NCBI GenBank assembly: GCA_012026835.1
Contig: VEPN01000031.1
Span: forward strand, 1-37,009
Source: Candidatus Methanoperedens sp.
GTDB taxonomy: Archaea; Halobacteriota; Methanosarcinia; Methanosarcinales; Methanoperedenaceae
Reading direction: 5' to 3'
Length of the DNA stretch: 37,009 nucleotides
Shown here: positions 12,004-23,208 of the stretch, one piece after another
Position numbering within the stretch: position 1 is the stretch's first letter
How the letters are laid out: every line of letters begins with the position of its first letter
The notes under the pieces: model-generated
Databases searched by the model: none
The model's input: the letters and a program-made list of their open reading frames with translations, nothing else
Told to the model about the DNA's origin: nothing
Translations under genes and position numbers: made by a program

Positions 12004-12909
12004 ATGAAAAGAAAAGAAACAAACGAACCATCCAATGAAGCAGATACCGCATTGCGGCAGGAACTGGTGGAACATTTCCGTGAAAAGCGGGAACTGCTTC
12101 GGCAGCAATGGGTAGAGCAGATGACAACAAAAGGCTTGCTTGCAGGCATGACCCGGGAAGATATCGAAAATGAGTCAATCACTATCTACGATACTTGTAT
12201 TGTCTGTCTGGAAACCGGGGAGTACGAAGGCGCCCAGACCTATGCCATGCGCATGGCAGAACGCGGCGTGCTTCGCGGGATGACGACCGAACAGATAATC
12301 GGCGGCATACTCACGCTGCGCGATGTGTACGGGCGCAGCCTGTTTGAGTGGTACCAGCAGGATATGGAGAGGCTGTCTGCGGCGCTTGATATCTACGAAC
12401 CTGTCGCCAATAAGATCATTTCCATCGTTGCTCTTGCTTTTGTAGAAGAGCGCGAAAAAGTCGTCCGGCAGCAGCAGGAGGCCATCCGGGAACTTTCAAC
12501 GCCCGTATTGCAGGTCCGGGACCAACTGCTCATCCTGCCAATTATCGGAGTTATCGATACCCATCGCGCCCGCCAATTAACCGAACAATTACTGCGTACC
12601 ATCCGCACCAGGCGCGCCAAGGTCGTGGTTATGGATATCACGGGCGTTCCTGCCGTAGATTCCAAGATCGCAGGCCACCTTGTGCAAACGGTGGATGCTT
12701 CCAAGCTAATGGGGGCGACGGTCATCGTTACGGGCATATCACCTGAGATAGCCCAGACGCTTGTGACCCTTGGAGTGGATATAGCCAAGATGAACACCGT
12801 AGGAGACCTGCAGGGCGGCATCGAAGTAGCGAACCAGTTTTTGGGTTACAAAGTAGTCAGAACATATCCGGAAGCCGATTTAAATCACAAAGAAAAAAAG
12901 GTGCAATGA
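12004..12909 (+). CDS. rsbR: RsbR-type stressosome scaffold protein (RsbRD N-domain + STAS)
   Basis: A 301-residue RsbT co-antagonist. Residues about 15-150 form a helical sensor domain resembling RsbRD_N (REKRELLRQQWVEQM), and residues about 160-285 a STAS domain. Two phosphorylation sites of B. subtilis RsbR have counterparts: Thr186 in VIDTHRA (T171) and Ser220 in DITGVPAVDS (T205, here Ser). RsbR and RsbS build a large cytoplasmic complex that holds the kinase RsbT until stress. It is the first gene of the operon; RsbS follows after 3 nt. What the N-domain senses cannot be read from sequence. Base composition of this and the next genes looks more GC-rich than the surroundings, which fits acquisition from a bacterium. 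Confidence 0.88.
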   Translation: MKRKETNEPSNEADTALRQELVEHFREKRELLRQQWVEQMTTKGLLAGMTREDIENESITIYDTCIVCLETGEYEGAQTYAMRMAERGVLRGMTTEQIIGGILTLRDVYGRSLFEWYQQDMERLSAALDIYEPVANKIISIVALAFVEEREKVVRQQQEAIRELSTPVLQVRDQLLILPIIGVIDTHRARQLTEQLLRTIRTRRAKVVVMDITGVPAVDSKIAGHLVQTVDASKLMGATVIVTGISPEIAQTLVTLGVDIAKMNTVGDLQGGIEVANQFLGYKVVRTYPEADLNHKEKKVQ

Positions 12910-12912
12910 ACG

Positions 12913-13284
12913 ATGCTGGTTCCGATACTCAAACAGGGTGATTACCTCATTGCTTCCATCCAGTCAGAACTTAGCGATGCCGATTTGCTGAAATTACGTG
13001 ATGACCTTGTAAGACGGGTAAGCGAGTTCCGCTCGCGCGGGGTTATCGTGGATGTCACGGTGCTTGATGTAATGGATTCGTTTGCGACCCGCACCCTGCG
13101 CTCAATGGCGCATATGGTTATGCTTCGCGGGGCAGAAACCGTCATAGTCGGGATACAGCCTGAAGTTGCGTTCTCGATGGTGCAACTGGGTTTAAGGCTG
13201 GAAGGCGTAACGACCGCGCTTGACCTGGAAGAAGGACTTTCACTCCTGGACCATAAAATAAAAGGAGATAACGGGCTTGGCTGA
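12913..13284 (+). CDS. rsbS: RsbS-type STAS-only stressosome protein
   Basis: A 123-residue single STAS domain. The conserved acceptor Ser is visible in VMDSFATR (Ser56, equivalent to B. subtilis RsbS S59), preceded by the strand GVIVDVTVLD. In the known system RsbS binds and inhibits RsbT; RsbT phosphorylates it during stress and is released. GGTG lies about 9 nt upstream of the ATG, inside the end of rsbR. The 3' end overlaps the rsbT start by 8 nt. Confidence 0.9.
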   Translation: MLVPILKQGDYLIASIQSELSDADLLKLRDDLVRRVSEFRSRGVIVDVTVLDVMDSFATRTLRSMAHMVMLRGAETVIVGIQPEVAFSMVQLGLRLEGVTTALDLEEGLSLLDHKIKGDNGLG

Positions 13285-13690
13285 TAAAGCGTGCGTACCT
13301 ATCAATTCAGAAATTGATATCGTTACTGCCCGCCAGAAAGGACGGGAGATGGCACAGCAGTTGGGCTTCTCGTCCACCGAACTGACCCTAATTGCCACTG
13401 CCATCTCTGAGGTGGTGCGCAATATCGTGGAATATGCCAAGCACGGTGAACTTTGTGTGGACATTGTTCAGCAGGGTGATAAACGCGGAATCTCCGTAAT
13501 CGCCCAGGATAACGGACCGGGTATTCCTAATATCAAGCTGGCTATGCAGGATGGTTACTCGACAGGGAAAAGCCTTGGTCTGGGCCTGCCTGGGGCTAAG
13601 AGATTGATGGATGAGTTTGATATTGTCTCCGAGGTCGGAAAAGGGACGAAAGTGACCATGAAGAAGTGGGTGCAAAAGAATGTGCGATGA
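13277..13690 (+). CDS. rsbT: RsbT-type serine/threonine protein kinase
   Basis: A 137-residue GHKL kinase. It starts at TTG with GGAG 9 nt upstream. The N box is SEVVRNIVEYA (about 44-54), the G1 box DNGPGI and the G2 region GLGLPGAKRL, all intact, so it should bind ATP. In the known pathway it phosphorylates RsbS and RsbR, then leaves the complex and activates RsbU through RsbU's N-terminal domain. No RsbU phosphatase is encoded here. Instead an RsbU_N-like domain forms the N-terminus of the histidine kinase two genes downstream, the obvious candidate partner. Confidence 0.9.
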   Translation: MADKACVPINSEIDIVTARQKGREMAQQLGFSSTELTLIATAISEVVRNIVEYAKHGELCVDIVQQGDKRGISVIAQDNGPGIPNIKLAMQDGYSTGKSLGLGLPGAKRLMDEFDIVSEVGKGTKVTMKKWVQKNVR

Positions 13691-14309
13691 AACCGCCGAC
13701 CCGTTACGTTCAATCGAATTTGGTCTTGTCACGATACCATTGCAGGGAGAGTCCGTTTCAGGCGACGATTATATCATAAAGCCCTTCCATAATGGTGTTC
13801 TTGTGGCCGTGGTTGATGGATTGGGACACGGCTATGAGGCGGCCAGGGCTTCCGGGATCGCCATTGCTGCGCTTGATACCTATGTTCATGAATCAATCAT
13901 CCCGCTTGTAAAACACTGCCATGATGCATTGAAAGGAACACGCGGAGTGGTGATGAGCATTGCAAAGTTCAACCTGCCTGATAATACGCTGTCCTGGCTG
14001 GGTGTAGGAAATATCGAATGCGTGCTGCTGCGAGCGGACGAAAAATTTGCCCCCTCGCATGAGAGGCTGCTGCTTCGCGGTGGAGTGTTAGGCTACCAGC
14101 TCCCGACGCTAAGGGAATCCATAATCCCGGTGATGCGGGGTGATACACTGGTTTTTGCCACAGACGGCATCCGAAGCGGCTTTGAGGAAGGACTGAAAGC
14201 TGGCGAAAGGCCGCAGCAAATTGCAGATAATATCATGACGGGATTCTCAAGGGGGACGGATGATGCATTGGTGTTGGTTGTGCGGGTTGTGCGATATATA
14301 TGCAAATAA
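13680..14309 (+). CDS. rsbX: RsbX-type PP2C phosphatase
   Basis: A 209-residue PP2C/SpoIIE-type phosphatase with metal-binding motifs SGDDY (about 27-31), VVDGLGHG (about 44-51), FATDGI (about 159-164) and TDDALVLVV near the C-terminus. RsbX resets the stressosome by dephosphorylating RsbS and RsbR. It lacks the N-terminal extension of RsbU, which favours the RsbX assignment. The start overlaps rsbT by 11 nt and the end overlaps the next gene by 10 nt, so translation is coupled throughout. Confidence 0.85.
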   Translation: MCDETADPLRSIEFGLVTIPLQGESVSGDDYIIKPFHNGVLVAVVDGLGHGYEAARASGIAIAALDTYVHESIIPLVKHCHDALKGTRGVVMSIAKFNLPDNTLSWLGVGNIECVLLRADEKFAPSHERLLLRGGVLGYQLPTLRESIIPVMRGDTLVFATDGIRSGFEEGLKAGERPQQIADNIMTGFSRGTDDALVLVVRVVRYICK

Positions 14310-16135
14310 AGTATGACACTTTAAAAGAATTAGAAAAACAATATGTTTTAGCACTTGAGGATTATGTTGCAGAGGGGGAAGAAAGGGCTTTAGAGTGCGC
14401 GTATGAACTCGGGCGCAGGGCCATAGCCGACGGGCAGGGCATCCTGGATATAGCAGCGGTCCACCAGAGGGCTCTTGCCAGTGTCCTGCTACGCACGCAA
14501 GAGAGGGAAGAGACCATGAAGAAAGCAGGGCAATTCTTCGCTGAAAGCATAGCTCCTTTTGAGATGACATTTCGCGGGTTCCAGGAATCCATCATTAAGC
14601 TGCAGAACCTGAACAGGACGCTTGAGCAGTCTGAGATGAAATTCCGCTCTGTGGTTGAAGCTGCCAACGACGCGATAATTTCAAGCGATAGCAGCGGGAA
14701 TATTATTTCGTGGAACAAACGCGCACATGCTGTCTTTGGATATTCCGGAGAAGAAGTGATGGGCAAACCGCTTACTATCCTGATGCCTGGGCAATATGAA
14801 GATGTTCACTTAATGGGGTTGGGACGGATTAGGTCAACAGGTGAATTCGGATATAAAGGGAAAACATTTGAATCTCATGGGTTGAGGAAAGATGGCACTG
14901 AATTCCCAATTGAGATTTCCATAGCCGGATGGAAAACTGAAGACAGAGCTTTTTACACAGGTATCATCCGCGATATTACAGAGAAAAAAAGACTTGAAGT
15001 ACAATTATTACGTAAACAGCGAATGGAGAGCATAGGCACACTTGCAGGAGGTATTGCGCATGACATCAACAATATACTGACACCGATAATGCTGTCGCTT
15101 CAAATATTAAAAGAAAAAACCAAGGATGAGCAGAGCCGGAAAGTTATTGCCATCATGGAGCAAAGTTCACAGCGGGGCGCTGATCTAATAAAGCAGGTTC
15201 TTTCATTTTCACGGGGGATTGAGGGTGAACGCAAGCCTCTTCAAATCACAGACCAGATATCTGAAATCGAGAAGGTCTTAAAAGAGACATTCCCAAGAAA
15301 TATCGAAATCCGAACCGATATAGAAGAGAGACTTTTTACTATATCAGGGGACGTTACACAAATAAATCAGATTCTGATGAACCTGTGTGTAAATGCCCGC
15401 GATGCAATGCCTGATGGCGGTATTCTAAATATCACAGCTTCAAATTTTTTCATTGATGAAAACTATGCACGGATGGACAATGAGGCAAAAGCAGGTTCTT
15501 ACGTTATAATTGGGGTCTCGGACACCGGGGTCGGTATTTCACCTGAAATACTCGACAGGATTTATGAACCGTTTTTCACAACAAAGGAGTTCGGAAGAGG
15601 CACAGGGCTTGGTCTCTCAACAGCTCTTGCGATCGTGAAAAGTCACGGCGGGTTCATAAATGTGGACAGTAAAGTTGGAAAGGGGACAGCATTTAAGGTA
15701 TATCTACCTTCGACCATAGCCGAAACAGAAAACGCGGATGAGCGCCAGTCACCAGAGCGCGGGCATGGAGAATGGATTCTTGTGGTTGACGATGAGGCCT
15801 CGATCCGGGATATAACTACTGCAACATTGAAATCGAACCTTTACAATGTGATTGCAGCAGAAGATGGTATAGAAGCAGTAGCATTGTATTCTCAAAAAAG
15901 AAAGGATATCAAGGCTGTCCTTATGGACATGGCGATGCCCAATATGGGCGGACTGGCGTGTATCAGTATACTGCGTAAAATTGACCCCAAAGTAAAGGTT
16001 ATTGCAGTAAGCGGATTGACTGAGAAAGACAAGCTTGCAAAAGTTGAAGATGCCCGTATAGGCGCCTTTTTATCCAAGCCTTATACTGCCGATAGATTGC
16101 TGAGAACCATACACGAAGTCATAAGCTCGAAATAG
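14300..16135 (+). CDS. Hybrid histidine kinase with RsbU_N-like N-terminus
   Basis: A 611-residue soluble protein. Order: an RsbU_N-like helical domain (about 1-95; LEKQYVLALEDYV, AAVHQRAL, ESIAPFEM), one PAS domain (about 112-228), HisKA with phospho-acceptor His254 in AHDINN, HATPase (NLCVNARDAM at 361-370, DTGVGI, GTGLGL), and a C-terminal receiver with Asp543 in LMDMAMP. No transmembrane segment. The first domain is the part of RsbU that RsbT binds, so RsbT probably docks here and links the stressosome to His-Asp phosphotransfer. It has no DNA-binding output, so a downstream carrier is needed. The kinase core and receiver are close paralogues of the second kinase in the operon. Confidence 0.85.
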   Translation: MQIKYDTLKELEKQYVLALEDYVAEGEERALECAYELGRRAIADGQGILDIAAVHQRALASVLLRTQEREETMKKAGQFFAESIAPFEMTFRGFQESIIKLQNLNRTLEQSEMKFRSVVEAANDAIISSDSSGNIISWNKRAHAVFGYSGEEVMGKPLTILMPGQYEDVHLMGLGRIRSTGEFGYKGKTFESHGLRKDGTEFPIEISIAGWKTEDRAFYTGIIRDITEKKRLEVQLLRKQRMESIGTLAGGIAHDINNILTPIMLSLQILKEKTKDEQSRKVIAIMEQSSQRGADLIKQVLSFSRGIEGERKPLQITDQISEIEKVLKETFPRNIEIRTDIEERLFTISGDVTQINQILMNLCVNARDAMPDGGILNITASNFFIDENYARMDNEAKAGSYVIIGVSDTGVGISPEILDRIYEPFFTTKEFGRGTGLGLSTALAIVKSHGGFINVDSKVGKGTAFKVYLPSTIAETENADERQSPERGHGEWILVVDDEASIRDITTATLKSNLYNVIAAEDGIEAVALYSQKRKDIKAVLMDMAMPNMGGLACISILRKIDPKVKVIAVSGLTEKDKLAKVEDARIGAFLSKPYTADRLLRTIHEVISSK

Positions 16136-16144
16136 GGTGCGTAT

Positions 16145-16178
16145 GAGATGGAGAATGAGATGGAGAATGAGATGGAGA
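16145..16178 (+). repeat. 12-bp tandem repeat at the start of the binding-protein gene
   Basis: The unit GAGATGGAGAAT occurs just under three times. It encodes MENEMENEME and supplies an in-frame ATG every 12 nt (16148, 16160, 16172), with GGAG 6 nt before each later ATG. Slippage would add or remove four residues without a frameshift. Confidence 0.75.
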
Positions 16179-17230
16179 GAACCAGTGATAAAATGGAAAA
16201 AATTGGCATGAAATCATCAAAGCGGTTTATCCTGGTAATTATCGTTATTGCCGCAATTTTGGCGGTAGTTTTAGGCTTAATGTTTTACCAGAATCAGGGC
16301 TATACAGGGAAGACGGAATCAATCACCATCGGATATTCGCCGTTTGAGCAAACCGCACTTTTCTGGATTGCAAAAGACCAGCACTTTTTCGAGGCGAACG
16401 GCCTTAATGTAACCTTGCGTAAGTATGATAGCGGGGTAGGTTCACTGGATGGGATGTTAAACGGTGAAGCGGATATTGCGGTAGGAGTAACAGAGTTCCC
16501 CACTGCCTGGAGGATACTCCAGAAAGAAAGAATTCGCATAATTGGGGGCATCGCTAAAACCGAACAGATATATCTTGTTGGCCGCAAAGACAGGGGAATT
16601 GAATATATCTCAGATCTTAAGGGGAAAAGGGTTGGGACTACCTTAAGAACGATATCGCATTTCTATCTCGGCAGATTTCTTGAGCTTCATGGCATGAATA
16701 TGAAGGATATAACCCTTGTTGAACTCAAAACACCCGCAGAATGGGTTGATGCTGTTGCAAACGGAGACATTGATGCAGTTGCCACTTCCCAGCCGTATGT
16801 TAATTCAGCCAAAGAGCGTCTGGGAGATAATGCTGTTATCTGGCCTGCACAGGGTGGCCAGCTCCTGTTTGGATTGATTGTTTCCACAGATGAATGGGTA
16901 ACAAAGCATCCTGAACCGGTCACCAGGTTACTTAAGTCTCTGGCACAGGCCGAAGAGTATATCATACATAATCCCGCTGAAGCAAAAGTAATTGTACAGA
17001 AGCGGCTAAACATGGACTCCGCGTATATAGAAACAATCTGGTCTCAAGACCAGTTCTCACTCTCACTCGACCAGTCACTTATTCTGGCTATGGAAGATGA
17101 GGCACGGTGGATGATTAATAATAACCTGACGGATGAGACAAACATACCTGATTTCCTGGACTACATCGGCGAGGACGGTCTCAAAGAGGTAAAACCCGAA
17201 GCTGTAGATATCGTACGGCAAAAGACATGA
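16148..17230 (+). CDS. Membrane-anchored NMT1/SsuA-type solute-binding protein
   Basis: A 360-residue protein. After a charged repeat (MENEMENEMER) and a basic stretch comes one transmembrane segment (about 25-47), then a type-II periplasmic-binding fold of the NMT1/TauA/SsuA class: ITIGYSPFEQTALFWIAKDQ, NGEADIAVG, LKGKRVGTT, GDIDAVATSQPYV. Such proteins bind small anions or amines such as sulfonates or thiamine precursors; the ligand here is unknown. No ABC permease or ATPase is nearby; instead its stop overlaps the start of a membrane sensor kinase (ATGA, 17227-17230). It probably acts as an extracellular sensor subunit. The true start could be any of three ATGs. Confidence 0.82.
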   Translation: MENEMENEMERTSDKMEKIGMKSSKRFILVIIVIAAILAVVLGLMFYQNQGYTGKTESITIGYSPFEQTALFWIAKDQHFFEANGLNVTLRKYDSGVGSLDGMLNGEADIAVGVTEFPTAWRILQKERIRIIGGIAKTEQIYLVGRKDRGIEYISDLKGKRVGTTLRTISHFYLGRFLELHGMNMKDITLVELKTPAEWVDAVANGDIDAVATSQPYVNSAKERLGDNAVIWPAQGGQLLFGLIVSTDEWVTKHPEPVTRLLKSLAQAEEYIIHNPAEAKVIVQKRLNMDSAYIETIWSQDQFSLSLDQSLILAMEDEARWMINNNLTDETNIPDFLDYIGEDGLKEVKPEAVDIVRQKT

Positions 17231-20097
17231 AGATCAAAACCCAGTTTATCAATAGTATGGTCATCTTCGGTATAATATTGCTTATTATTGCCATATCGGT
17301 GATTGCCACAAACCAGCAGGTAGAGCGGCTTAATATGCAGGAAGAGATCACTAAGAATATCGAGCACGATATAAGCGAACTCGGCTATCTGTCGAATGAT
17401 TATCTCCTTTATCACGAAAGCCCGCAACGTGCCAGGTGGGAAGCAAAATTTTCCGAGCTTTCAGATAAACTATCGAACCTGAAGCCGAACAATCCGGAAC
17501 AACAGGTTCTTATCAATGATATCAGGGAGAATCAGCAACGATTGGAAGCAATCTTCACAGATGTGGTAGCGACCTTTGAAAACGCATCTCAGGATACTGA
17601 TCCATCATTATTTCAGATATCATGGAGCCGGATGGCAGTTCAAAATCAGGGAATGATGTTTGATGCTTCACGGTTATCGCAGATGTTACGTGACCAGGAA
17701 GACCAGGTGAAGCAAACAAATATCACACTCATTTTTGTGTTGCTGGGAATATTTGCTGCGTATTTTCTTATAAATTATCTAATAGTTTACCGCAGTGCTT
17801 TAAAATCGATATCTGCTCTTCAGGCCGGAATAAAGATTATCGGTTCCGGCAACCTGGATTATTTCATCGAAACGAACAAGCAGGATGAAATCGGCGAATT
17901 ATCCCGTGCCTTCAACCAGACAACAGCGGATTTGAAAGGTGTCACCGCTTCCAGAGCTGAGCTGGAGAAGGAAATTATCGAGCGTAAGCGGGCGGAAGAG
18001 GGGCTGCGGGAAAGCAACCAGCATCTCGATTTACTCTCCTACACAGCAGGCAGGCTTCTGACAAGCGATAGGCCGCAGCAGATAATTGAGGAACTGTGCC
18101 AGAGGGTGTTAATATCCCTGGATTGCTCAGTATTCTTCAATTATCTTATGGACGAAGAGAGGCAGCGATTGCATCTCAATGCCTTTTCAGGAATCCCGGA
18201 GGAAGCCATCCGGGAGATCGAATGGCTGGATTATGGAGTTGCGGTGTGTGGATGCGCTGCCCGTGATGGAAGCCGGATAGTCTGCGAGAACATCCCTGAC
18301 ACCCCCGACCCCCGGACTGATCTTGTCCGTTCCTTCGGCATCAAAGCCTATGCATGCCATCCGCTTTTCTCCCATGGGAACGTCATAGGGACGCTTTCCT
18401 TTGGTACCAGGTCAAGACTTTTCTTTAATGAGGATGAGCTGACACTGATGAAGACTGTAACTGACCAGGTGGCAATTGCAATCGAGCGTGTAAAGGCTCG
18501 TGATGAGTTAGAACTGCGGGTTAAGGAAAGAACCATAGAACTGGAAGTTACTAACAAATCACTGCTGGCTGAAATAGAAGAGCGCAAGCGTGCCGAAGAG
18601 AAGATACGGGAACAAGCCGCTCTTCTTGATAAAGCGCAGGATGCCATTGCAGCCCGGGATCTGGAACATCGCCTCATCTACTGGAATAAAGGTGCACAGC
18701 GACTTTATGGCTGGACAGCGGAAGAAACCATAGGCAAAAATGCTGATGAACTTTTATATAAAGAAGAATCATCTGACCTCATTGAAGCCAAGAAGAGCGT
18801 AATTGAAAAAGGAGAGTGGATAGGTGAGCTGCGGCAACGGACTAAAGATAATAAGGATATCATTGTAGAAGGCCGCTGGACCCTGGTGCATGATAACGAT
18901 GGAAAACCAAAATCGATACTTTTTATCAACACCGACATTACTGAGAAAAAGAGGCTTGAAGCGCAGTTATTACGTGCGCAGCGGATGGAAAGCATAGGTA
19001 CTCTTGCAGGCGGCATAGCGCATGATATTAACAATATGCTGACACCGATTATGCTCTCTTTGCAAATGCTAAAAGAAAAATTCGGGGATGAACAGAGCCA
19101 GAAATTGCTTACTATTCTTGAACAGAACTCCCAGCGCGGGGCAGCTTTAATAAGGCAGGTCCTTTCATTTGCACGGGGTATTGAGGGTGAACGAAAGCCA
19201 CTTGAAATTACTCATATCATATCTGAAATTGAGAAAATTATAACAAATACCTTTCCAAGAAATATAGAAATTCAAATAGATATAAATAAAGACCTCTATA
19301 ATATCTCAGGGGATGCCACGCAGTTGCACCAGGTCATAATGAACCTGTGCATAAACGCCCGTGATGCTATGCCTGATGGCGGGACCCTTCACATCTCTGC
19401 CGGGAATGTTTCCATTGATGAAGACTACGTAAGGATGCATAATGAGGCAAAAGCGGGCTCTTATATCGCCATTTCAGTCTCGGACACCGGAGCAGGTATC
19501 CCCTCCAAAATACTTGACAGGATTTTTGATCCGTTTTTCACGACAAAGGAGTTCGGGAAAGGAACTGGACTTGGCCTGCCAACAGCCCTTGCAATTGTGA
19601 AGAGCCACGGGGGATTTATAAATGTAGATAGCAAGGTTGGGAAAGGAACAACGTTCGGGGTATATCTGCCAGCTACTCTGGACAAAATACGAAATGTAGA
19701 GGAACAGCAGCTTGAATTGCCTGCCGGGCACGGGGAATTGGTACTCGTTGCCGAAGACGAAGATTCAGTTCGTGAGGTTACTATTTCTATATTGGAAAAA
19801 TACGGGTATAATGTGCTTGCAGCAAACGATGGAGCAGAAGCTGTGGCATTATATACCCAAAATAAAGATAAAACCAAAGTTGTTCTTATGGATATGATGA
19901 TGCCGGTAATGGATGGTTACATGGCTATCAGGGCTATTAGAAAGATTACTCCTGAGGTTAGGGTTATTATAGTCAGTGGATTAGCAGAGAAAGATAAACT
20001 TAAAAACATGGTAGATTGTACTAATGCTTTCCTGCCAAAACCTTACACTGCCGAGAGATTGCTAAGAACAATACATGAAGTCATAAGCGCGAAATAG
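17227..20097 (+). CDS. Membrane hybrid histidine kinase (TM-HAMP-GAF-PAS-HK-REC)
   Basis: A 956-residue sensor kinase. Domains in order: TM1 (about 8-27), extracellular helical region (about 28-164), TM2 (about 165-188), HAMP (about 190-245), coiled coil, GAF (about 266-425, with Cys in VCGCAA and YACHPLF), second coiled coil, PAS (about 460-580), HisKA with His599 in AHDINN, HATPase and a receiver with Asp889 in LMDMMMP. Coupled to the solute-binding protein by a 4-nt overlap, so that protein is the likely external input. The C-terminal ~380 residues are closely similar to the first kinase of the operon, implying duplication and possibly shared partners. Confidence 0.88.
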   Translation: MKIKTQFINSMVIFGIILLIIAISVIATNQQVERLNMQEEITKNIEHDISELGYLSNDYLLYHESPQRARWEAKFSELSDKLSNLKPNNPEQQVLINDIRENQQRLEAIFTDVVATFENASQDTDPSLFQISWSRMAVQNQGMMFDASRLSQMLRDQEDQVKQTNITLIFVLLGIFAAYFLINYLIVYRSALKSISALQAGIKIIGSGNLDYFIETNKQDEIGELSRAFNQTTADLKGVTASRAELEKEIIERKRAEEGLRESNQHLDLLSYTAGRLLTSDRPQQIIEELCQRVLISLDCSVFFNYLMDEERQRLHLNAFSGIPEEAIREIEWLDYGVAVCGCAARDGSRIVCENIPDTPDPRTDLVRSFGIKAYACHPLFSHGNVIGTLSFGTRSRLFFNEDELTLMKTVTDQVAIAIERVKARDELELRVKERTIELEVTNKSLLAEIEERKRAEEKIREQAALLDKAQDAIAARDLEHRLIYWNKGAQRLYGWTAEETIGKNADELLYKEESSDLIEAKKSVIEKGEWIGELRQRTKDNKDIIVEGRWTLVHDNDGKPKSILFINTDITEKKRLEAQLLRAQRMESIGTLAGGIAHDINNMLTPIMLSLQMLKEKFGDEQSQKLLTILEQNSQRGAALIRQVLSFARGIEGERKPLEITHIISEIEKIITNTFPRNIEIQIDINKDLYNISGDATQLHQVIMNLCINARDAMPDGGTLHISAGNVSIDEDYVRMHNEAKAGSYIAISVSDTGAGIPSKILDRIFDPFFTTKEFGKGTGLGLPTALAIVKSHGGFINVDSKVGKGTTFGVYLPATLDKIRNVEEQQLELPAGHGELVLVAEDEDSVREVTISILEKYGYNVLAANDGAEAVALYTQNKDKTKVVLMDMMMPVMDGYMAIRAIRKITPEVRVIIVSGLAEKDKLKNMVDCTNAFLPKPYTAERLLRTIHEVISAK

Positions 20098-20100
20098 GGT

Positions 20101-20511
20101 TTACCTTCCAAGGATGGTATGAATTTTCTCTCTCAGTAAATTTAGATCAAACGGCTTTGTAATATAGTCGTTCGCCCCCAATTCTATACCCGGTATCCTG
20201 CCTGTTTCGCCCATCCCGGTCAGCATAATAATCGGGATATCTCTGGTCAGGGGATCTTTCCTGAGCTTGTTGCATATTTCATAACCTGTCCTGTCAGGAA
20301 GCATGATGTCTAATAAGATCAGATCAGGAATCTCACTGCGCGCTTTTCGGATAGCTCCATCGCCGCTATATGCCTCGATGACGTCATAGTTATCTGATTC
20401 AAGGGACATTTTCAATGCATCAACTATGCTCTTTTCATCATCTACAACCAGTATTTTGCCACGTGCATCAGGTAAGTTATTCATCCTTCTCACACTTATC
20501 CAATTACCCAC
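20101..20511 (-). CDS. Stand-alone response regulator receiver
   Basis: A 136-residue single REC domain: acidic pocket VVDDE (about 23-27), phospho-acceptor Asp in LLDIMLP, Thr in MLTGMG and Lys in TKPFD. There is no output domain, so it probably acts by protein-protein contact or as a phosphorelay carrier. The start could be the GTG at 20511 or an ATG at 20484; the second has GAGAAGG directly against it, so I keep the longer form. It converges with the large hybrid kinase (3-nt gap). Both hybrid kinases lack effectors, so this is a possible shared target. Confidence 0.82.
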   Translation of the reverse strand: MGNWISVRRMNNLPDARGKILVVDDEKSIVDALKMSLESDNYDVIEAYSGDGAIRKARSEIPDLILLDIMLPDRTGYEICNKLRKDPLTRDIPIIMLTGMGETGRIPGIELGANDYITKPFDLNLLREKIHTILGR

Positions 20512-20634
20512 GTAGTTAATATCCTCTACTTAACATTTGCTGTTGTAGAAAACTTAATTTTTGTGACCTCAGAATAAGGATTTCAGGGAAGTATCTTATG
20601 ATCAGGCTTGCAGGAGGTTAGGCTTGCAGGAAGC

Positions 20635-21165: not shown

Positions 21166-21218
21166 AGATGAACTGATTATATGTTAATCTGGATAACACT
21201 TAAATACTTTTCCGCAAG

Positions 21219-21228
21219 CTTTAATATC
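21219..21228 (+). promoter_or_regulatory. TATA box of the BlaI-protease genes
   Basis: CTTTAATATC about 26 nt before the ATG at 21250, fitting a leaderless transcript. It argues for the shorter start of the regulator. Confidence 0.45.
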
Positions 21229-21249
21229 TTTTACGTTAATTGTAAACAC

Positions 21250-21609
21250 ATGGTTAAGCTTGATCAGATCAATATTTCAAATGAAGGCCTCACAAAGTTC
21301 TTCAGCCCTATCGAATCTGCGATAATGAAGACTTTATGGAACGAAGGCGAAATGATGACCTCGGAGCTGACTGAAAAGACAAAGATACCCCTTACAAGCG
21401 TGGCAGGTACGCTTGACAGGCTTGTAAAAGCAGGATATGCAATGCGGCGTGTGGAAACCGTGAATGGGAGGGTAAGATATGTGTATGCTCCGGTTTCTTC
21501 CGAGGAAGAGGCTGCTACTGAGATAACAACGAGGGTACTTGATAGCCTTGTGGATGCGTTCGGCCCTCTTGCGCTTGAAAATTTCTCAAAATACAGTGGT
21601 AAGAAATGA
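21250..21609 (+). CDS. BlaI/MecI-type winged-helix repressor
   Basis: A 119-residue regulator of the penicillinase-repressor class. The winged helix is clear: SPIESAIMKTLWNEGEMMTS, then LTEKTKIPLTSVAGTLDRLVKAGYAMRR and the wing NGRVRYVYAPV. The start at 21250 is preferred over 21181 because the family begins near KLDQINIS and a TATA box lies 26 nt before it. Its end overlaps the membrane protease (ATGA, 21606-21609). In bacteria BlaI is cleaved or released when the membrane protease BlaR1 is activated; a similar repressor-protease pair seems to exist here, without a beta-lactam sensor domain. Confidence 0.82.
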   Translation: MVKLDQINISNEGLTKFFSPIESAIMKTLWNEGEMMTSELTEKTKIPLTSVAGTLDRLVKAGYAMRRVETVNGRVRYVYAPVSSEEEAATEITTRVLDSLVDAFGPLALENFSKYSGKK

Positions 21610-22286
21610 AACTCCTGGGCGAAATAAACTGTTTTGGCCAGTGTTTGAGATTGTCCGAGTTTGCATCTTTTATAGCCCTTTTAATAGTAGTTTCAATAGC
21701 CATGCTGGCAGCAAGCCTGATGCTTCGGAATCCGAAACAAAGGATTATGACTTTCGTCTCAGCCCAGGTTTGTGTTCTCCTGGCCATAGCTGCAACATTT
21801 TACGTGATGAATTGTAGCGAAATGCTATCGATTTACCTGTACTCCGGTTATGTGGTTGTATCAACAATCATCATATTCGGCGTGCTTCGGCATTACGACA
21901 GGATTCTGGTCAGGCGCCTTGATGCAAGGCCCATAGCGCCCCTTATGAAATGGACACAGGATTTTGTTGACAGGCTTACATCAGCCACAATATATTATTA
22001 TGATTCTGCGGTACCCCGTGCTTTTGCATCAGGAAGGTCGATTTTTGTTTCTCTTGGGCTTCTTGAAGTCTTAAATGAGGATGAATTGAAGGCAGTCCTG
22101 GCTCATGAGGCATGGCATATCCGCAGTAACTCAAGGACACCTTATTTAAAACAGCTTGCCCTGATGACTTTTTCGCAACCCAAGAAATCCGAACTTGAAA
22201 ACCTTGCTGATGTTTTTGCAGCCGAGATAGCTGGCAGTGAAGCTCTTTCTTCTGCGCGCGATAAACTGGATAAAGTATTTATCTGA
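21606..22286 (+). CDS. Membrane zinc protease, M48/M56 (BlaR1 core-like)
   Basis: A 226-residue membrane protease with three hydrophobic segments in the N-terminal half (about 20-40, 48-68 and 76-94). The catalytic site is HEAWH (His167, Glu168, His171), then ENLAD (Glu198 as third ligand). Before it, PRAFASGRSIFVSLGLLEVL is typical of M48/M56 enzymes. It lacks the C-terminal sensor domain of BlaR1. Position overlapping a BlaI-type repressor suggests that it controls the repressor by proteolysis, though a general quality-control role like its neighbour HtpX is also possible. Confidence 0.8.
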   Translation: MKLLGEINCFGQCLRLSEFASFIALLIVVSIAMLAASLMLRNPKQRIMTFVSAQVCVLLAIAATFYVMNCSEMLSIYLYSGYVVVSTIIIFGVLRHYDRILVRRLDARPIAPLMKWTQDFVDRLTSATIYYYDSAVPRAFASGRSIFVSLGLLEVLNEDELKAVLAHEAWHIRSNSRTPYLKQLALMTFSQPKKSELENLADVFAAEIAGSEALSSARDKLDKVFI

Positions 22287-22347
22287 AAAGGTAAACAATA
22301 ACAAGAGTTAACTATTATAAGATAATTATCAAGAGGTAAGAAAACAA

Positions 22348-23208
22348 ATGAAAAGCATGTTCAAAACAACGGTGCTGTTAGCAGCACTGACTGGATTGTT
22401 AGTAATCATAGGCAGTTTCTGGGGACCGGGTGGCATGGCGATAGCATTCATCTTTGCTATAATCATGAATTTCGGGTCGTACTGGTTCAGCGATAAGATA
22501 GTGCTTGCTATGTACCATGCAAAGGAGGTCACAGAGGCCGAATTCCCCAATCTATACAGGGTTGTGCGCGGCCTTACTTATAAAGCGAGCCTGCCAATGC
22601 CCAAAGTATATATTGTTGAGTCACCTATGGCCAATGCTTTTGCCACAGGAAGGAATCCGGAACATGCAGCAGTTGCCGTAACAACTGGAATAATGCAGAT
22701 ATTAACGCCCGAAGAACTTGAAGGCGTGCTGGCCCATGAGCTGGCGCATGTCTCAAACCGCGATACCTTGATCAGCGCAACAGCAGCGACTATTGCCGGG
22801 GTTATAACCATGATAGCTTCGATGGCACAATGGGCTGCCATATTCGGCGGCTTCGGAGGGCGTGATGATAATGACAACAGCGGGGGAATAATAGGTTTTC
22901 TTGTTCTTGTATTAATTGCGCCGATTGCGGCAACGATTATCCAGCTTGCAATATCCAGATCCCGCGAGTTCGTAGCTGATGAGAGCGGTGCAAAAATGTG
23001 CGGAAAACCCCGGGCTCTTGCCAATGCTCTTGGGAAATTGCATCGTTCAGCCGACATATCTGCGGCGAATGGCCGCGCAGCGGATATTAACCCTTCGACT
23101 GCCCACATGATGATAGTCAACCCGCTTCGCGGGAGTGCGTTAATGTCTCTCTTCTCGACCCATCCCCCAACCGAGGAGAGAATTGCGAGACTGAACAGGA
23201 TGATTTAA
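22348..23208 (+). CDS. htpX: HtpX family M48 membrane protease
   Basis: A 286-residue HtpX-like protease. TM segments at about 8-24 and 29-48, catalytic HELAH (His130, Glu131, His134), two further hydrophobic segments (about 144-168 and 186-206) and the third ligand in [11 protein letters not shown]. This is standard length for archaeal HtpX. HtpX degrades misfolded membrane proteins. A GAGG ribosome site lies just upstream. It follows the BlaR1-like protease by 61 nt on the same strand and may be under the same repressor. T-rich sequence at 23221-23231 follows the stop. Confidence 0.9.

Follow-up and report, generated by a model that had tools for sequence, protein, structure and literature searches.

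An RsbRSTX stressosome operon of Candidatus Methanoperedens with a histidine kinase as its likely output

Stressosome genes in the genome of an archaeon raise the question of what such a module could control. We analysed a stretch of 37,009 nucleotides from Candidatus Methanoperedens sp. (contig VEPN01000031.1; hereafter the window), for which an earlier note, made from the letters alone, had proposed a complete stressosome operon in canonical bacterial order that is wired to two hybrid histidine kinases and a solute-binding protein and has a phosphorelay as output.

Seven same-strand genes occupy window positions 12004-20097. The widest gap is 12 nt, in agreement with the claim that no gap through the kinases and the solute-binding protein gene exceeds 13 nt. 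Gaps of at most 3 nt separate the genes of the rsbR-rsbS-rsbT-rsbX-HK1 segment (12004-16135), and the genes for the solute-binding protein (SBP) and HK2 overlap by 4 nt. With rsbR, rsbS and rsbT adjacent and rsbX also present, the gene set that defines a stressosome is there. The features are listed below, including a block delimited by comparison with the closest named relative, LFW-280_3_2 (contig CABMIH010000039.1), which has been described as 'Ca. Methanoperedens' (PMC8561730).

12004-12909, + strand: rsbR, helical N-terminal sensor domain and C-terminal STAS domain with phosphorylation sites T186 and S220 (PF01740, 2e-16)
12913-13284, + strand: rsbS, STAS-only scaffold with S56 (PF01740, 4e-12)
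13277-13690, + strand: rsbT, TTG start, GHKL-fold serine/threonine switch kinase (PF13581, HATPase_c_2/PF02518)
13680-14309, + strand: rsbX, single-domain PP2C (SpoIIE) feedback phosphatase (PF07228, 1e-14)
14300-16135, + strand: HK1, RsbU_N (residues 13-89)-PAS-HisKA (H254)-HATPase-REC (D543), proposed RsbT target (PF08673, 1.5e-7)
16148-17230, + strand: SBP, NMT1/SsuA-like solute-binding protein with an N-terminal membrane anchor (PF09084, 1.7e-23)
17227-20097, + strand: HK2, hybrid kinase with TM-extracytoplasmic-TM-HAMP-GAF-PAS-HisKA-HATPase-REC architecture and no RsbU_N
20101-20511, - strand: receiver-only protein of 136 aa, convergent with the operon, candidate phospho-acceptor (PF00072, 2.8e-27)
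16137-20619, no strand: 4.48-kb block, replaced by 38 bp at the collinear LFW-280_3_2 locus (blastn, 87% identity on either side)

The order R-S-T-X is the common Gram-negative layout, so that "canonical bacterial order" applies in this sense, but not in that of Bacillus, where the order is R-S-T-U-V-W-sigB-X. Most of the 11 operon upstream regions compared contain Shine-Dalgarno-like sequences. A TATA-like GTTAATATAAG is common to the window and LFW-280_3_2 only, and no promoter box conserved throughout the genus was found in the 11 regions. Further downstream, at 21181-23208, a gene for a BlaI/MecI-like repressor (Penicillinase_R) is followed by M56/M48-like and M48 peptidase genes, an arrangement that resembles a BlaR-BlaI pair in an archaeon.

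The residues on which the switch would depend are retained. In an alignment of the window RsbR and RsbS with 74 other RST sets (75 in total), the serine at RsbS S56 is invariant (75/75), while RsbR position 186 (T186 in the window) is T or S in 54 and position 220 (S220) is S or T in 67 of the 75 sets. A profile search with RsbR matched the Listeria RsbR structures 9o4r/7b0u at 1e-74, and the AlphaFold model (pLDDT 85.7) had 7b0u as its top Foldseek match (E 8.9e-12). Since a search of the whole genome returned no RsbRD_N domain (PF14361), we leave the sensor type of RsbR without a name. The ATP site of RsbT is intact: its N box reads RNIVEYA, and both DNGPGI and the lid SLGLGLPG are kept. The four rsb genes, their coordinates and the intact functional residues were thus correctly read in the earlier note. 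Comparison with LFW-280_3_2 yielded dN/dS values of 0.015 for RsbS, 0.06 for RsbR, 0.11 for RsbT, 0.25 for RsbX and 0.19 for HK1; by this measure the operon proteins are under strong purifying selection.

The nearest matches of RsbT outside the genus are bacterial RsbT proteins with up to 67% identity, as would be expected if bacterial DNA had contaminated the assembly. We rejected this explanation, the probability of which we regard as negligible: McrA is encoded in the host genome (3.32 Mb in 116 contigs, completeness 99.8%), the contig itself carries archaeal eRF1/pelota-type and CofH-like genes, both flanks of the operon are collinear with LFW-280_3_2 at 87-88% identity, and orthologues are present in 13 genomes of the same genus. 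The operon is therefore archaeal, as had been claimed. Carriage by a plasmid or phage was also rejected as a candidate; the only matches, at less than 60% identity, were to bacterial plasmids and phage-labelled records. RsbT of the window type (66-90% identity) was found in 13 of 30 same-genus relatives, all 13 of which share the gene order R-S-T-X-RsbU_N protein. Because the other 17 are without this RsbT type, the module is accessory in the genus. Elsewhere in the genus and the family some genomes carry a second, more distant RST type, and differing types occur in other archaeal families.

The classical output is not available in this organism. No sigma-70 region 2 (Sigma70_r2) was detected in the 99.8% complete genome, with control searches positive in 10 of 14 genomes. 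The only SpoIIE-type phosphatase domain of the genome is that of RsbX itself, and there is hence no RsbU phosphatase. Searching the genome with RsbT for RsbW-like proteins (E 1e-3) returned RsbT alone, and no RsbV gene adjoins the operon. Consequently, the module cannot act on a sigma factor, which upholds the earlier reading that sigma-dependent output is impossible.

HK1 may offer a different route. The genome contains exactly one RsbU_N domain, located in HK1, and no other protein therefore carries the docking domain known for RsbT. The Pfam match is above the cut-off but modest (PF08673, 31.9 bits); a profile built from this domain matches the B. subtilis RsbU chains 2j70/1w53 at 6e-20/2e-18, and Foldseek gave a weak, non-significant match of the modelled domain to 1w53 (E 0.72, prob 0.90). 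HK1 has no transmembrane segment and is cytosolic, whereas HK2 has two and the SBP anchor peaks at residues 27-45. The kinase H, N and G motifs and the receiver D are present in both kinases. Judged by its domain anatomy, HK1 appears to be the one obvious target of RsbT, and it alone would be wired in this way. Its orthologue directly follows rsbX in all 13 same-genus relatives with the module. Three of these kinases (G014, G024, G007) are without a fused REC domain, in G028 the gene is fragmentary, and several contain a second PAS domain that is absent from HK1 and 67-79% identical to the PAS domain of HK2.

Taken together, we consider it likely that the operon encodes a functional Gram-negative-type RsbRSTX stressosome that is conserved in part of the genus and has the soluble histidine kinase HK1 as its output. 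From the genes, RsbR and RsbS would be expected to assemble into a complex that holds RsbT. A signal at the helical N-terminus of RsbR would cause RsbT to phosphorylate RsbR (T186/S220) and RsbS (S56) and to leave the complex. Free RsbT could then bind the RsbU_N domain of HK1 and alter its kinase or phosphatase activity in either direction, while RsbX would reset the switch by removing the phosphate from RsbS and RsbR. HK1 may pass phosphate to its own receiver, to separate receivers or to both, with the product of 20101-20511 as the first candidate. The best reading of the sequences is thus that RsbT, acting on RsbU_N of HK1, switches a His-Asp pathway in place of RsbU. In Vibrio vulnificus an interaction between RsbT and D1 was not detected, which counts against this reading, although D1 does not contain RsbU_N (PMC9237108).

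Alternatively, RSTX could have been acquired horizontally without a working link, in which case HK1 would respond mainly via its PAS domain and RsbT would have its target elsewhere. The grouping of the window RST type with bacteria instead of other archaeal RST modules (see below) and the reshuffling of kinase parts fit this explanation. We nevertheless find it very improbable, as RsbU_N is retained at 57-89% identity beside RSTX in 13 relatives and the dN/dS of HK1 is 0.19.

The genes following HK1 may have a separate history. At the LFW-280_3_2 locus, HK1 runs straight into a metallophosphoesterase gene, and SBP, HK2 and the receiver-only gene are absent. The block 16137-20619 is thus an insertion or deletion, and its boundaries are situated close to where HK1 and HK2 terminate in almost identical 3' sequence. 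The HisKA-HATPase-REC tail of HK2 is 68% identical to that of HK1, and altogether five kinases of the genome including HK1 share it, the other four being 65-68% identical to HK1. The best NCBIfam matches of HK1 and HK2 are CckA-type models, and the match of SBP is to TIGR01728, all of them below cut-off. Tail-sharing hybrid kinases on contigs C44, C75, C100 and C106 of this genome (G000) combine nearly interchangeable tails with differing sensor heads. Such tails appear to have been swapped or duplicated among different sensor heads.

The seven genes might still form one circuit, in which SBP and HK2 sense an extracellular solute and the stressosome senses an internal signal, with a single receiver serving both kinases. 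Gaps of no more than 12 nt, the 4-nt SBP/HK2 overlap, the similarity of the two tails and an SBP fragment that also follows HK1 at a contig end in G023 (L040) would agree with such a circuit. Yet the entire SBP-HK2-receiver block is missing from the sister locus, SBP-HK2-like pairs exist without RSTX in the same-genus genomes G008, G017 and G007, and three further kinases of the genome carry the same tail, so that we consider one circuit unlikely. The proposed wiring of the stressosome is therefore supported by domain anatomy for HK1 through RsbU_N, but not for SBP and HK2, which are best explained as an independent cassette for extracellular sensing, possibly with the phospho-acceptor of HK1 in common.

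With regard to the acceptor, the genome contains 24 receiver matches and one HPt domain, which lies in a 671-aa frame next to receivers on contig C25 and probably belongs to CheA. A His-Asp-His-Asp relay is therefore poorly provided for. A His-Asp kinase loosely fits the phosphorelay output that had been suggested, but with a single HPt domain and three orthologous RsbU_N kinases without a fused receiver, a classical four-step phosphorelay is doubtful. In Methanosarcina acetivorans, a receiver-only protein encoded nearby accepts the phosphate of a hybrid kinase (PMC11784639). In G003 (L032), the RsbU_N kinase gene is immediately followed, on its own strand, by the gene for an orthologue of the receiver-only protein (84% identity); the gene in the window is inverted relative to this orthologue. 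Owing to this orthologue and its proximity, we infer that the product of 20101-20511 is the first candidate to accept phosphate from HK1.

The search across archaea that the earlier note had recommended covered a sample of 393 genomes of the phylum, 23 of which, single-contig genomes among them, contain RsbU_N. Around most of the archaeal RsbU_N loci examined we found RsbR, RsbS, RsbT and often RsbX, together with an RsbU_N-HisKA-HATPase fusion; a few of the proteins have RsbU_N-GAF or other architectures. A PP2C domain is absent from every archaeal RsbU_N protein examined, whereas it was present on RsbU_N proteins at 22 of the fetched bacterial loci, mostly from Bacillales. In many other bacteria a response regulator follows the RsbU_N protein (LuxR-type in two scanned examples of 210-221 aa). 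Some archaeal RST operons (L184-L186, L046, L047, L054) contain a second RsbT-like gene immediately after rsbT, which in the f4 family is approximately 36% identical to the window RsbT. At L052 and L053, RsbT adjoins an RsbU_N-GAF-GAF-HK gene, and RsbR and RsbS were not detected within the fetched stretch.

In the proposed tree analysis, with RsbR, RsbS and RsbT joined, the window type groups with bacteria of the Gram-negative type (support 100), and the remaining archaeal types lie elsewhere; these trees are unrooted, contain long branches and include the best 80 bacterial matches only. With this bacterial sample and these long branches, a single archaeal origin of RST was rejected (constrained monophyly, AU test, p 0.0005). 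This suggests a transfer of the module from bacteria before the genus diversified, the direction being unproved because the tree is unrooted. As a map including several single-contig genomes, the archaeal RST set allows the number of transfers from bacteria to be tested. It may tentatively be speculated, as a possibility we still regard as doubtful, that archaeal stressosomes are rewired as a class, with RsbT driving histidine kinases via RsbU_N and never an RsbU phosphatase, resulting in sigma-free His-Asp signalling, and that in this strain, through the common tail, a kinase for extracellular solutes also signals to the same receiver.

The novelty implied by the earlier note was overstated. 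Occurrence of rsbRSTX in 'even some archaeal species' as well as bacterial RsbU_N and HisKA/REC outputs have been published (PMC9237108), and stressosome modules of archaea are named in two further papers (PMC8942246, on bacteria and archaea; PMC10014275, citing Pane-Farre 2017). Given these cases and an acidobacterial locus of the same layout (L102), the combination of rsbRSTX with an RsbU_N kinase is of a known kind. In the open literature searched, archaeal stressosomes are mentioned only in passing, and no paper contained both 'Methanoperedens' and 'stressosome'. The case for a sigma-free stressosome output in this organism is good. Should HK1 respond to RsbT, a methane-oxidising archaeon would possess a stressosome that does not end in a sigma factor. 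With only one possible target, such a system would allow the link between stressosome and two-component signalling to be studied.

Among known systems, the sigB operon of Bacillus and Listeria shares the RsbR/S/T/X residues and folds and RsbU_N as RsbT docking domain, but continues with the RsbU phosphatase, RsbV, RsbW and sigma-B, whereas the window genome has no sigma factor. MA4377 of M. acetivorans and the receiver-only protein R3 (PMC11784639) form a comparable arrangement of hybrid kinase and nearby acceptor, although MA4377 has no RsbU_N and no stressosome genes are described. The VvrsbRSTX-D1-D2 genes of V. vulnificus (PMC9237108, PMC10014275) likewise place a two-component system after RSTX; unlike in the window, D1 has no detected RsbU_N, and the predicted target of D1/D2 is cyclic-di-GMP. 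Other archaeal RST(X) operons (L184-L191, L193) also have RST beside RsbU_N-HisKA-HATPase, but differ in their PAS-type RsbR sensor, a sometimes present second RsbT-like gene, a non-hybrid kinase and their position on other branches of the RST tree. Gram-negative RsbRSTX modules with an RsbU_N kinase (PMC9237108; L066, L102, L107, L138) have the same R-S-T-X order followed by RsbU_N-HisKA-HATPase. They often add a response regulator (with LuxR-type HTH in the two scanned), where the window has a fused REC and a receiver-only gene nearby; the acidobacterial locus L102 has a fused REC as well and, like HK1 and its neighbours, combines RSTX with an RsbU_N-hybrid kinase.
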